Of a stretch of 64,000 nucleotides of DNA, positions 21,474 through 39,849 are shown in pieces (the first letter of the stretch is position 1; each line of letters starts with the position of its first letter). Under the pieces are notes generated by a model, which was not told the origin of the DNA, searched no databases, and worked only from the letters and a program-made list of their open reading frames with translations. The stretch is from Pleomorphomonas sp. PLEO (GTDB lineage: Bacteria > Pseudomonadota > Alphaproteobacteria > Rhizobiales > Pleomorphomonadaceae), in NCBI RefSeq assembly GCF_041320595.1, contig NZ_CP166625.1, forward strand, positions 434,001 to 498,000, written 5' to 3'. Both the position numbers and the translations under genes were made by a program.

Positions 21474-21499
21474 TCTCGCAACCCAGGAAAATGGAGGGT

Positions 21500-21595
21500 G
21501 GGAGGCCGACGAGTGACCCGAGCCGAGGCTCGTTGGGGCTGCTTCCTTCCGGACCTGACCCGGTTGGCGAGTGGTTCGTCCACTGCCAACCTCCC
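21500..21595 (-). ncRNA. ffs: Signal recognition particle RNA (4.5S, small bacterial type)
   Basis: On the minus strand, GGTCAGGTCCGGAAGGAAGC, then AGCC, at about 21560-21537 is the universally conserved SRP RNA core with the GGAA tetraloop that binds Ffh. The 5' GGGAGG (21595-21590) pairs with the 3' CCTCCC (21505-21500), giving a hairpin of about 96 nt, and TTGGCAGTGG/CCACTCGCCAA segments extend the stem. It lies just upstream of dnaX in the same direction. The RNA directs membrane-protein ribosomes to the translocon. Ends are set from the pairing and may be off by a few bases. Confidence 0.93.
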
Positions 21596-33462: not shown

Positions 33463-34401
33463 TTAAGGGTGCCAAACTGACACGAGCCCGTCAAGCCGAC
33501 CTTCGCTGTTCCATGCCAAAAGATCGATGCCGATCAAGTGGCTGACCGTCGCCATGGCGCGATCGGCAATCCCGAAGCCGGCATAGGGCCGCTCAGGCGC
33601 CCAATCGACGACCTTGAGATCCTTATCGATGCCCTTGGCGCTTGCCAGCCAAGCGACCGCCGCGTCCTCTCCACCGATCTCGTCAACGAGCTTGAGGTCG
33701 AGCGCCTGCCGACCGGAGTAGATGGAGCCATCGGCGAGCCTCAGGGCATCGGTTCGAGCCAGACCACGTCGTTCGGCGACGATATCGACGAACCAGGCAT
33801 AGGTGTCATCGACAAGGCGCTGGATCATGGCGGCGGCTCCAGGCTGCTCGGGATAGGTGAAGGGTGAAGGCTCGGCCTTGAGCGGCGCCGATTTCACCGT
33901 CTTCACCTCGATGCCGATCTTCTGCATCAGCGCGCCGACACTGCCATATTGGAACAACACGCCGATCGAACCGGTGATGGATGTCCGCTCGGCGAAAATC
34001 CGGTCTGTGGCGATCGCCGTCATGTAGCCGGCCGAGGTGGCGAGCGTCCCCATAGTGGCCACCACCGGCTTCTTCTCGGCAAGGCTGCGCAGGCCGTCGT
34101 AGAGTTCCTCACCCCCGACGGTGGTGCCGCCGGGGCTATCGATTGCGACGATCACCGCCTTGACGGCATCGGAGGATGCAAGGTCCTTCAGCATCTTCCG
34201 CTGCCCGGCGTCGGAAAGAATCATGCCGGAAACCGTGACGCGAGCAATGTGGGGGCCACTCTTGCTGGACATGTCGCCACCGACATAAAGCCCACCGGCG
34301 ACCACGAGCCCAACGGCGAGCAAAAGGGTAATGCCCCGCCAGAAATAGAGCCGGCGCCTCAACTGCCGCCGCTCGACAATGGCATCCGCTTCAAGGGTCA
34401 T
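33463..34401 (-). CDS. sppA: Signal peptide peptidase SppA, short form
   Basis: A 312-residue, single-domain SppA (36K type), about half the size of E. coli SppA. An N-terminal membrane helix (about 18-38) anchors a periplasmic serine protease that degrades cleaved signal peptides. The substrate-strand IDSPGG motif, the catalytic Ser region with ATSAGYMTAIATD, the SITGSIGVLFQYG segment and the Lys of the VKSAPLKAE motif are seen. The ATG at 34401 gives a compact cytosolic tail before the helix. It lies upstream of ihfB on the same strand. Confidence 0.88.
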   Translation of the reverse strand: MTLEADAIVERRQLRRRLYFWRGITLLLAVGLVVAGGLYVGGDMSSKSGPHIARVTVSGMILSDAGQRKMLKDLASSDAVKAVIVAIDSPGGTTVGGEELYDGLRSLAEKKPVVATMGTLATSAGYMTAIATDRIFAERTSITGSIGVLFQYGSVGALMQKIGIEVKTVKSAPLKAEPSPFTYPEQPGAAAMIQRLVDDTYAWFVDIVAERRGLARTDALRLADGSIYSGRQALDLKLVDEIGGEDAAVAWLASAKGIDKDLKVVDWAPERPYAGFGIADRAMATVSHLIGIDLLAWNSEGRLDGLVSVWHP

Positions 34402-34549
34402 GAGGCGCTTCCCCGCTTGCCGGTTCCTATGGACCTGAGGTAGCAGCACGACGGCCAGCCGGCAAGACAAACCCACGGCCGGCTTCGGCAGCCCAGACGG
34501 GGCCATCGAAAGGTGGCATGAAGTCTAATTGGCTTCAAGTAAAGTTAAA

Positions 34550-34677
34550 AAATGGAAAAGGGCGTCGTGTTCAGCGACGCCCTCGTTCTGACCTTGCGAT
34601 GCCAAGCATCGTTTGAGGTCGGCAAGCCTCGAAGGTTGAGGCCCGTCTTAACGTCCGGACTCGGATCGAGTGGACAG
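34550..34677 (-). ncRNA. Candidate small RNA between rpsA and sppA
   Basis: On the minus strand a promoter-like TTGACG (34711-34706), a 17-base spacer and AATATT (34688-34683) precede about 128 bases that fold into four successive hairpins: 34675-34653 (ACTCG/CGAGT inside GTCC/GGAC), 34642-34626 (GCCTC/GAGGC), 34620-34590 (GACCT/AGGTC with inner GATGC/GCATC) and 34583-34559 (AGGGCGTCG/CGACGCCCT), the last followed by TTT and TTTTTT. The rpsA terminator lies just upstream, so this is a separate unit. It is in the 409-bp gap between rpsA and sppA; I see nothing else between 34402 and 34545. Confidence 0.65.
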
Positions 34678-34682
34678 CTACT

Positions 34683-34711
34683 AATATTGTCCCAATGCTT
34701 GTCCGCGTCAA
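34683..34711 (-). promoter_or_regulatory. Promoter of the candidate small RNA
   Basis: The -35 element TTGACG (34711-34706) and -10 element AATATT (34688-34683) have the optimal 17-bp spacing on the minus strand. The predicted start of transcription is near 34677. Confidence 0.55.
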
Positions 34712-34742
34712 GGATACCTTGGGAGCAATGGTAAGAATTCGT

Positions 34743-34776
34743 AGAAAGAAAAAAGGCCCGCGCGGGGCGGGCCTTT
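34743..34776 (-). terminator. Intrinsic terminator of rpsA
   Basis: On the minus strand AAAGGCCCG (34776-34768) pairs with CGGGCCTTT (34760-34752) and TTTTTTCTTTCT follows. It lies about 35 bp after the end of the S1 gene. Confidence 0.85.
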
Positions 34777-34810
34777 CTCATTGTCGGAAAACGACGTTTT
34801 GCGTCAGCTC

Positions 34811-36505
34811 TCACTCGCCGTCCTGGCGGGCCTTGAGGGCGGCGCCGAGGATGTCGCCGAGCGAGGCACCCGAGTCGGAAGAGCCGAACTGAGCGACGGC
34901 TTCCTTCTCCTCGAAGATCTCCAGGGCCTTGATCGACAGGCCGACCTTGCGGGTCTTCTTGTCGAACTGGGTGACGCGAGCATCGAACTTCTCGCCGACG
35001 GCGAAGCGCTCGGCGCGCTGGTCGTTGCGGTCGCGCGCCAGGTCGCCACGGCGAATGAAGGCGGTGATGTCGGTGTCGACGATCCGCACTTCAAGTCCGG
35101 CTTCCTTGACCTCGACCACCTCGCAGGTGACCACGGAGTTGCGGCGGATCTCGCCAGCCGACTCCATCGGATCACCGCCGAGCTGCTTCATGCCGAGGCT
35201 GATGCGCTCCTTCTCGACGTCGACATCGAGGACAACCGCCTTGACGACGTCACCCTTGCCGAATTCCTCGATGACCTGCTCGCCCGGACGGTTCCAGTCG
35301 AGATCGGAGAGATGGACCATGCCGTCCACATCGCCGTCGAGGCCGATGAACAGACCGAACTCGGTCTTGTTCTTGACTTCGCCTTCGACCACCGAACCGA
35401 TGGGATACTTCTCGACGAAGGCTTCCCAGGGGTTCTGCAGCGTCTGCTTGAGGCCGAGGGAGATGCGGCGCTTGACCGAATCCACCTCAAGAACCATGAC
35501 TTCCACTTCCTGGCTGGTCGAGACGATCTTGCCGGGATGGACGTTCTTCTTGGTCCAGCTCATCTCGGAAACGTGGATCAGGCCTTCGATGCCCGGCTCC
35601 AGCTCCACGAAGGCGCCGTAGTCCGTGATGTTGGTGACGCGGCCGGTGAACTTGGCGTTGACCGGGTACTTGGCCTCGATGGCATCCCAAGGATCGTTCT
35701 CGAGCTGCTTCATGCCAAGGCTGATACGGTGCGTCTCCTGATTGACGCGGACGATCTGCACCTTGACCTGCTGGCCGATCGACAGCACCTCGGACGGGTG
35801 ATTGATACGGCGCCAGGCGATATCGGTGACGTGCAGCAGGCCGTCGATGCCGCCGAGGTCAACGAACGCACCGTAATCGGTGATGTTCTTGACGACGCCG
35901 TCGACGATCTGGCCTTCCTCGAGGCTCGACACCAGCTCCGAACGCTGCTCGGCGCGGGTCTCTTCGAGGACGACGCGGCGCGACACGACGATGTTGCCGC
36001 GACGCTTGTCCATCTTCAGAATCTGGAAGGGCTGCGGCGTATGCATCAGCGGGGCAACATCGCGCACCGGGCGGATGTCGACCTGCGAGCGGGGCAGGAA
36101 GGCCATGGCGCCGTCGAGATCGACGGTGAAGCCACCCTTGACCTGGTTGGAGATCTGGCCGACCACCTTCTCGTTCTTCTCGAAGGCGACCTCGAGACGG
36201 ACCCAGCTCTCTTCGCGGCGAGCCTTGTCGCGCGACAGAACAGCTTCACCGAGCGCATTCTCGACGCGCTCCAGGTAGACTTCCACCGTATCGCCAACCT
36301 TCAGCTCGCCGTCGCGAGCCCGGGCGCCAAATTCCTTGAGCGGCACGCGCCCCTCGACCTTCAGGCCGACGTCGATGACGGCAAGGTCCTTCTCGATGGC
36401 GACAATGGTGCCCTTGACGACAGTACCCTCGGCCACGTCCGAAGCGGTGAGGCTCTCGGCGAGCAGAGCGGCGAAGTCCTCGCGGGTGGGATTGAGTTGA
36501 GACAT
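34811..36505 (-). CDS. rpsA: 30S ribosomal protein S1
   Basis: A 564-residue S1 protein, which binds mRNA leaders and unfolds them at the ribosome. Six S1 motifs can be followed (for example VVKGTIVAIEKDLAVIDVG, then GFTVDLDGAMAFLPRSQVD, DGVVKNITDYGAFVDLGGID and GRVTNITDYGAFVELEPG). Length agrees with E. coli S1 (557). The start at 36505 has AGGAG in front. It lies after aroA-cmk on the same strand, the conserved order, and ends at an intrinsic terminator. A long open frame on the opposite strand is a shadow of its codon bias. Confidence 0.95.
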   Translation of the reverse strand: MSQLNPTREDFAALLAESLTASDVAEGTVVKGTIVAIEKDLAVIDVGLKVEGRVPLKEFGARARDGELKVGDTVEVYLERVENALGEAVLSRDKARREESWVRLEVAFEKNEKVVGQISNQVKGGFTVDLDGAMAFLPRSQVDIRPVRDVAPLMHTPQPFQILKMDKRRGNIVVSRRVVLEETRAEQRSELVSSLEEGQIVDGVVKNITDYGAFVDLGGIDGLLHVTDIAWRRINHPSEVLSIGQQVKVQIVRVNQETHRISLGMKQLENDPWDAIEAKYPVNAKFTGRVTNITDYGAFVELEPGIEGLIHVSEMSWTKKNVHPGKIVSTSQEVEVMVLEVDSVKRRISLGLKQTLQNPWEAFVEKYPIGSVVEGEVKNKTEFGLFIGLDGDVDGMVHLSDLDWNRPGEQVIEEFGKGDVVKAVVLDVDVEKERISLGMKQLGGDPMESAGEIRRNSVVTCEVVEVKEAGLEVRIVDTDITAFIRRGDLARDRNDQRAERFAVGEKFDARVTQFDKKTRKVGLSIKALEIFEEKEAVAQFGSSDSGASLGDILGAALKARQDGE

Positions 36506-39773: not shown

Positions 39774-39849
39774 GGGGCTATAGCTCAGCTGGGAGAGCGC
39801 CTGCATGGCATGCAGGAGGTCAGCGGTTCGATCCCGCTTAGCTCCACCA
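39774..39849 (+). tRNA. tRNA-Ala (anticodon GGC)
   Basis: GGGGCTA pairs with TAGCTCC in the acceptor stem; the D arm is GCTC-AGCTGGGA-GAGC; the anticodon arm CCTGC-ATGGCAT-GCAGG puts GGC at the anticodon; the T arm is AGCGG-TTCGATC-CCGCT; the encoded 3' end is ACCA. The anticodon reads GCC and GCU alanine codons. CCA is encoded. Confidence 0.96.

Follow-up and report, generated by a model that had tools for sequence, protein, structure and literature searches.

A predicted four-hairpin small RNA gene between rpsA and sppA, apparently confined to one family of the Hyphomicrobiales

AbcR1 and AbcR2 of Sinorhizobium, Agrobacterium and Brucella (alpha-r15, with partial homology to SuhB, RF00519) are among the known systems closest to the small RNA (sRNA) locus studied here. 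In PMC7143759, they are described as intergenic, Hfq-binding RNAs of ~115-120 nt with an RpoD promoter, three stem loops and conserved CU-rich anti-SD motifs. The same source attributes to NfeR1 (alpha-r14) a sigma-70 promoter with conserved residues and a series of hairpins, and to the alpha-r14 RNAs as a group three hairpins whose stems are hypervariable and whose loops all leave the anti-SD motif unpaired, with six copies present in S. meliloti. It also presents EcpR1 (SmelC291) as a trans-acting sRNA of the Hyphomicrobiales with a sigma-70 promoter, whose GC-rich conserved stem loop pairs with its targets. GsrN of Caulobacter, according to PMC5869019, is a small intergenic stem-loop RNA with an intrinsic terminator and one best-conserved element; in its homologs, the promoter is of the EcfG type, a C-rich 5' loop is retained and the gene is usually found close to the general stress locus.

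The locus described here lies in a stretch of 64,000 nucleotides from Pleomorphomonas sp. PLEO, which is referred to as the window. Like AbcR1 and AbcR2, the locus would encode a short intergenic stem-loop RNA; unlike them, it has four hairpins rather than three with conserved CU-rich anti-SD motifs. It shares a sigma-70-type promoter and a hairpin series with NfeR1, and differs from the alpha-r14 RNAs in its conserved stem, its variable loops, its four hairpins and its one convincing copy per genome. The conserved unpaired anti-SD motif and the three hairpins, by which PMC7143759 defines alpha-r14 and alpha-r15, are not found here. Compared by description only, EcpR1 is alike in its sigma-70 promoter, its Hyphomicrobiales host and its conserved stem loop, but it is broadly distributed in the Rhizobiales, whereas the present sRNA was found in one family only. 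With GsrN, the locus has in common its intergenic stem loops, an intrinsic terminator and a single best-conserved element, whereas its promoter is of the sigma-70 type, its location is another, and its hairpin 2 loop is C-rich in only 3 of 20 copies.

The signals of the putative gene (promoter, hairpins and terminator) all belong to the minus strand and fill the interval that separates the rpsA terminator from sppA. Downstream of the rpsA stop (34811) comes the rpsA terminator (34749-34776, minus strand, read from the sequence), an upstream neighbour that lies outside the sRNA. Just downstream, a promoter scan identifies TTGACG-N17-AATATT, with the -35 hexamer at 34706-34711 and the -10 hexamer at 34683-34688. 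The sRNA body extends over 34555-34678, with a predicted start at ~34678-34675 and an end in the U tract, down to ~34547, which corresponds to a predicted transcript length of ~120-130 nt. More specifically, it consists of hairpin 1 at the 5' end (34652-34676), hairpin 2 (34621-34647), which has an 8-bp stem with G.U pairs and is the most conserved element of the sRNA, hairpin 3 (34590-34620), variable in sequence with its outer pairing kept, and hairpin 4 (34558-34584), the stem of an intrinsic terminator found by the terminator scan, which runs into the U-rich tail UUUUCCAUUUUUU (UUUUCC-A-UUUUUU, 34547-34559). The terminator tail is separated by ~150 nt from the likely start of sppA at 34401, which we prefer to a longer frame at 34506, and a promoter-like TTGCCG-N17-TACCTC (34437-34465, minus strand) precedes sppA within this interval. 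The initial annotation had read the locus in the same way, as a promoter with 17-bp spacing, about 128 bases in four tidy hairpins and a terminator, right after the rpsA terminator and consistent on one strand, and each of these elements held up.

Within 34000-35200, the sigma-70-like site is the single one, compared with 0.2 expected in shuffles. The same 1.2 kb contains three terminator-like sites versus 1.0 expected, and the sRNA terminator taken alone is therefore unremarkable.

Folding of the strand 34678-34550 yields four successive hairpins at -54.4 kcal/mol (z -4.35), and none of 200 shuffles was as stable. The four-hairpin series was also obtained when the 20 copies from the family were folded individually, with exceptions in L012, where hairpin 2 is replaced by another pairing, and in a few copies in which parts of hairpins 1 and 3 differ. 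To assess covariation, pairs were set by hand at 28 positions in the 20 copies (560 cells), because the RNAalifold consensus of alignment A2 (27 pairs, 12 of them with double changes) missed hairpin 3, where the alignment is shifted. Standard pairs occupy 530 of the 560 cells, as opposed to 169-263 when the partner is slid by 1-3 positions, and changes on both sides are seen in 51 cells at 13 of the 28 positions, compared with 1-6 cells at 1-5 positions in the slid controls, which correct only in part for the tendency of hand-set pairs to favour the structure. The 20 genomes are kin, and these counts are thus to be taken as support for the structure, neither as independent events nor as probabilities.

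Double-sided changes occur in each of the four hairpins. In hairpin 1, they affect four of the five outer positions, the two outermost of which are unpaired in 3 and 5 of the 20 copies. Hairpin 2 shows them at stem positions 2 and 6, and carries, below the stem, an A opposite a C and a G-C pair, both in every copy; this A-C position never forms a standard pair and alone accounts for 20 of the 30 unpaired cells. All five outer pairs of hairpin 3 change across the 20 copies, with a single unpaired cell, and the eight core pairs of hairpin 4 are paired throughout, with double changes at two of them. The terminator stem is present in 20/20 copies. Both arms of hairpin 2 make up a conserved stem, whereas the loops and linkers diverge, and the hairpin 2 loop varies between genera.

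The promoter is inherited along with the fold. The 60 bases upstream of each of the 20 copies contain exactly one TTGAC, continued as TTGACG in 19 copies and TTGACC in one. A spacing of 17 was first imposed on the promoter alignment and alternatives from 12 to 24 were then compared separately. At 17, all copies have A at -10 position 2 and T at position 6, and 19/20 match TATAAT in at least four of six positions (G014 in three), whereas other spacings reach at most 12/20 and 13/20 by these two measures. A perfect palindrome, CAAGG-TAT-CCTTG (CAAGGTATCCTTG, 34709-34721, minus strand), overlaps the -35 hexamer and is identical in the 12 closest genomes. As CAAGGNATCCTTG, it is the sole exact match in the genome, and it occurs with one mismatch at 38 places, compared with 6 for a reversed control. 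It is a possible operator of the sRNA gene. At the same position, G007 has a different inverted repeat, CAAGAT-TTCG-ATCTTG, recognised by eye. The 40 bases upstream of the -35 (34712-34750, around TTACCATTGCTCCC) are also well conserved in close genomes, seemingly beyond what a plain promoter needs.

A DNA search of 60 genomes detected the sRNA in each of the 14 that belong to the genus (a count that includes the genome of the window) and in none of the 46 others. We built two covariance models, R1 from the 14 genus copies and R2 from 16 copies, so that copies inside a model match by construction (the window copy in R1, and 16 of the 20 found by R2). R1 recovers the window copy, which is part of the model, at 34555-34677 with an E-value of 3.5e-40, and, although built from the genus only, found five of the six family copies from other genera (E 1.6e-17 to 9.7e-9). 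Its match in the remaining genome, G016 (L048), is false; the true copy there was found by R2. With R2, 20/20 family genomes have a match, the weakest being that of G016 at 1.5e-13, a copy absent from the model.

Among the better matches outside the family, which were the ones read, we found no convincing copy. Searches of 397 genomes of the order gave matches at E <= 0.01 in 48 genomes with R1, 16 of them in the family, and in 69 with R2, namely the 20 family genomes and 49 others, led by one at 9.8e-5. Among the 377 order genomes outside the family, no convincing copy was present in the 19 of the 49 R2 outsiders that were read, ten by a frame and motif check, five in alignments and four by eye (G313, G319, G300 and G197). 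The ten lack the hairpin 2 core and a TTGAC at the right place, and each has an open frame of 73-527 codons over the first 70 bases. The best R1 outsider, G313 (L031, E 1.3e-8), has an E-value about equal to that of the true G015 copy (9.7e-9), yet R2 gives it only 0.0033, and inspection by eye shows an open frame that ends there with a terminator behind it. Extended to the class (385 genomes, E 1e-5), the search returned, besides the window's own genome, only G735 (2.7e-6), which likewise looks like a frame end and then a terminator, leaving no convincing copy among the 384. These large order and class searches use stricter filters, by which some weak matches are lost.

A complementary motif scan for a strict form of hairpin 2 in a collection of 84,980 species gave 76 stretches; the window's own variant does not fit the strict form, and the scan covers only part of the possible family. 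The best six by R2 (E 1.9e-14 or better) come from a Pleomorphomonas sp., Oryzibacter oryziterrae, two Chthonobacter and two Methylobrevis, and most of them are copies already in R2. The seventh, from the Oscillospiraceae (L059, E 1.2e-7), looks like a frame end with a terminator, and the remaining stretches score 21.6 bits or less. Within the window's genome, no second convincing copy was found, the next R1 match scoring 21.6 bits. As far as searched, the predicted gene is confined to one bacterial family, which we infer to be the Pleomorphomonadaceae of the order Hyphomicrobiales.

No catalogued family matches the RNA. At gathering level, Rfam 15 has no match at the sRNA, and the whole window matches only tRNA and SRP RNA. 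These are a bacterial small SRP RNA at 21498-21594 (minus strand) and a tRNA-Ala(GGC) at 39774-39849 (plus strand). At E-values up to 10, the region 34500-34812 gives 19 rows, of which one, RAGATH-32, lies on the sRNA and reaches 14.1 bits where 41.8 would be required; the rest cover the rpsA terminator region. For the SuhB/mmgR model, related to AbcR1 and AbcR2, the score is 14.3 bits (cut-off 41), and its match covers the end of rpsA and the terminator, not the sRNA. The same stretch (34749-34812) weakly matches the 3' part of the Brucella sRNA CI414 (17.4 bits against 270, E 0.037), a match that is probably due to the terminator only. Eight divergent copies searched with their flanks at E up to 1 gave seven rows, none on the sRNA or reaching a cut-off, in keeping with the earlier statement that the RNA resembles no family that could be named with confidence. 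The open-access literature yielded no relevant paper on an sRNA with rpsA and sppA, and none on sRNAs of Pleomorphomonas or the Pleomorphomonadaceae.

For the function of the RNA, we propose that the housekeeping-type (sigma-70-like) promoter would start a transcript of ~125-130 nt immediately before hairpin 1, which would fold into the four hairpins and end at hairpin 4 as its intrinsic terminator. The sRNA may then act in trans as a regulatory RNA: Hfq would bind its U-rich 3' end, hairpin 2 would be its rigid and conserved core, and pairing with mRNAs, possibly different ones from genus to genus, would fall to the variable loops and linkers. This is the leading reading because Hfq is encoded in 20/20 family genomes (with a partial match in G015), a ProQ domain (Pfam), which the initial annotation had suggested as a binding partner next to Hfq, is found in 0/20, and close relatives have the U-rich tail. 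We consider Hfq-assisted pairing in trans to be somewhat favoured, and the explanation as a whole, an independent RNA gene with such a regulatory role, to be reasonably probable.

Several observations temper the pairing part of this proposal. Within the genus, the tail is rich in T. It is interrupted in G015 and G017 and only weak in G014, and G016 lacks it, which weakens a predicted family-wide role of Hfq. The G016 copy (L180, 4980-5030), found at a distance from both rpsA and sppA, retains the terminator stem but not the U tail; it may be a decaying copy or one that ends differently. The loops, which are the usual seeds, vary while the stem is conserved, a pattern that, to judge by these copies, is unlike that of typical antisense sRNAs, and the compensatory changes in hairpin 2 would argue against arms held by pairing with a fixed target. 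A target-seed test in three genomes, with one 10-base seed (complementary to the hairpin 2 loop and three bases adjoining it), was negative: it occurs at 8, 12 and 11 places, compared with 8, 7 and 9 for the reversed control, and among the 30 of 31 places fetched none besides the sRNA gene is common to all three genomes. Two places recur in two of the genomes, and each of them falls within a longer open frame. We also rejected a possible pairing of the hairpin 2 arm with the sppA leader (CGGCAAGC), as the complementarity is lost in L002 despite an unchanged arm and is absent outside the close genomes.

The main rival to Hfq-assisted antisense pairing is a protein bound by hairpin 2. Here, a protein would read the stem, with its G.U pairs, the invariant A opposite C and the G-C pair below, and the RNA would titrate or scaffold it with no mRNA pairing. 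Such a role fits the pattern of conservation, which is strongest in a stem whose two arms are preserved and show compensatory changes, as opposed to the diverging loops and linkers, and the strict hairpin 2 motif occurs once per genome, at the sRNA locus, in the six family genomes retrieved. Against it, most copies have an Hfq-type U tail, and no further site that could compete for such a protein turned up in the genome. We regard protein binding of this kind as unlikely, though the best of the alternatives, and the corresponding picture of a family-specific RNA that works through a protein at hairpin 2, the remainder of the molecule being a replaceable frame, as similarly unlikely.

The leading reading, an RNA acting in trans, also has to be weighed against a role in cis, and here the neighbours of the 20 copies, whose frames were chosen by the GC of codon positions, are informative. 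As a 5' leader or attenuator of sppA, the element would be a conditional terminator whose read-through feeds sppA-ihfB. Indeed, sppA lies downstream on the same strand in 19/20 copies, at 153-702 nt in the 17 measured. The exception is G016, which keeps the sRNA with neither rpsA nor sppA in the 10 kb taken (~4.9 kb on each side); motA/motB-like frames, labelled from reading their translations, flank the sRNA there on one side. Beyond the widely varying distance, the sequence after the terminator is poorly conserved. Averaged over pairs of the 12 closest genomes, identity reaches 0.95 in the sRNA itself; on the rpsA side it is 0.91 over the preceding 60 bases and then 0.82 and 0.76 at greater distance, and past the sRNA it falls to 0.55 (next 20 bases) and 0.59 (next 70) before reaching 0.75 over the following 100, into sppA. 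Furthermore, sppA seems to have a promoter-like site of its own, since TTGCCn-N17-TACC, a pattern chosen by eye, occurs between the sRNA and sppA in 13/14 genus copies and in 0/6 other copies, and no alternative antiterminator was noticed, although this was not a systematic search. A leader of sppA is thus quite improbable.

Release from the rpsA 3' UTR by processing would agree with the position of rpsA upstream on the same strand in the window and 16 other copies (17/20), but in the window the rpsA terminator lies in between and the sRNA has its own promoter. Moreover, a 528-codon frame separates rpsA from the sRNA in G007, and G017 and G015, like G016, have no rpsA within the 10 kb taken; in both of them the upstream frame is divergent and sppA lies downstream. 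We consider such a fragment very unlikely. The rpsA-sppA setting given in the initial annotation is correct for the window, while across the family these neighbours are not fixed. With three genomes having no rpsA nearby, and one of these no sppA either, the predicted sRNA is best seen as its own gene, neither the 3' end of rpsA nor an obligate leader of sppA.

A small protein gene in place of an RNA is less credible still. Open frames cross the region, and an ATG in hairpin 3 is common to the 12 closest genomes; however, in two of these it opens a frame of just 7 codons, L013 and L014 lack it altogether, and the 14 genus copies share no reading frame, all three being interrupted in at least one copy, while the changes that occur preserve pairs. 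A chance arrangement of hairpins is refuted for practical purposes: hairpin-plus-terminator matches are common, those weak matches elsewhere that were read look like open frames or the ends of genes with a terminator behind them, and three terminator-like sites lie in 1.2 kb at the locus itself, but chance does not account for inheritance in 20/20 genomes, covariation and a fixed promoter spacing.

Taken together, the initial proposal of an independent sRNA is borne out by homologs in 20/20 family genomes, covariation in four hairpins, the fixed promoter spacing, the lack of a shared frame and the changed neighbours. On this comparative evidence, the locus very probably is an independent non-coding RNA gene, and its predicted product represents a genuine RNA family of an ordinary type, one that apparently has not been catalogued.

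The history of the locus may be read from genomes of other families. A search for sppA matched 57 other-family genomes, and loci were taken from the best 30 of the listed matches, three of which belong to the family. In the remaining 27, no hairpin 2 core was found upstream of sppA, and the best R2 match in these upstream regions scored 15.5 bits (L149, E 0.03) and was oriented oppositely to sppA. Of these 27 loci, 21 have rpsA and sppA together, with an estimated gap of at most 111 nt in 17 and of 294-1022 nt in four. Because the gap is so short in 17 of the 21, the sRNA gene apparently originated in, or relocated to, a place that is usually closed.

These findings add a well-supported RNA family, with no match in Rfam 15, to a group of Hyphomicrobiales for which we found no sRNA paper in the open-access literature. 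If the sRNA arose in or entered the rpsA-sppA gap, it would provide a tractable case of the birth of an sRNA gene. Finally, the conservation of a stem alongside changing loops, opposite to the pattern that PMC7143759 describes for the alpha-r14 RNAs, poses a testable question as to the purpose of that stem.
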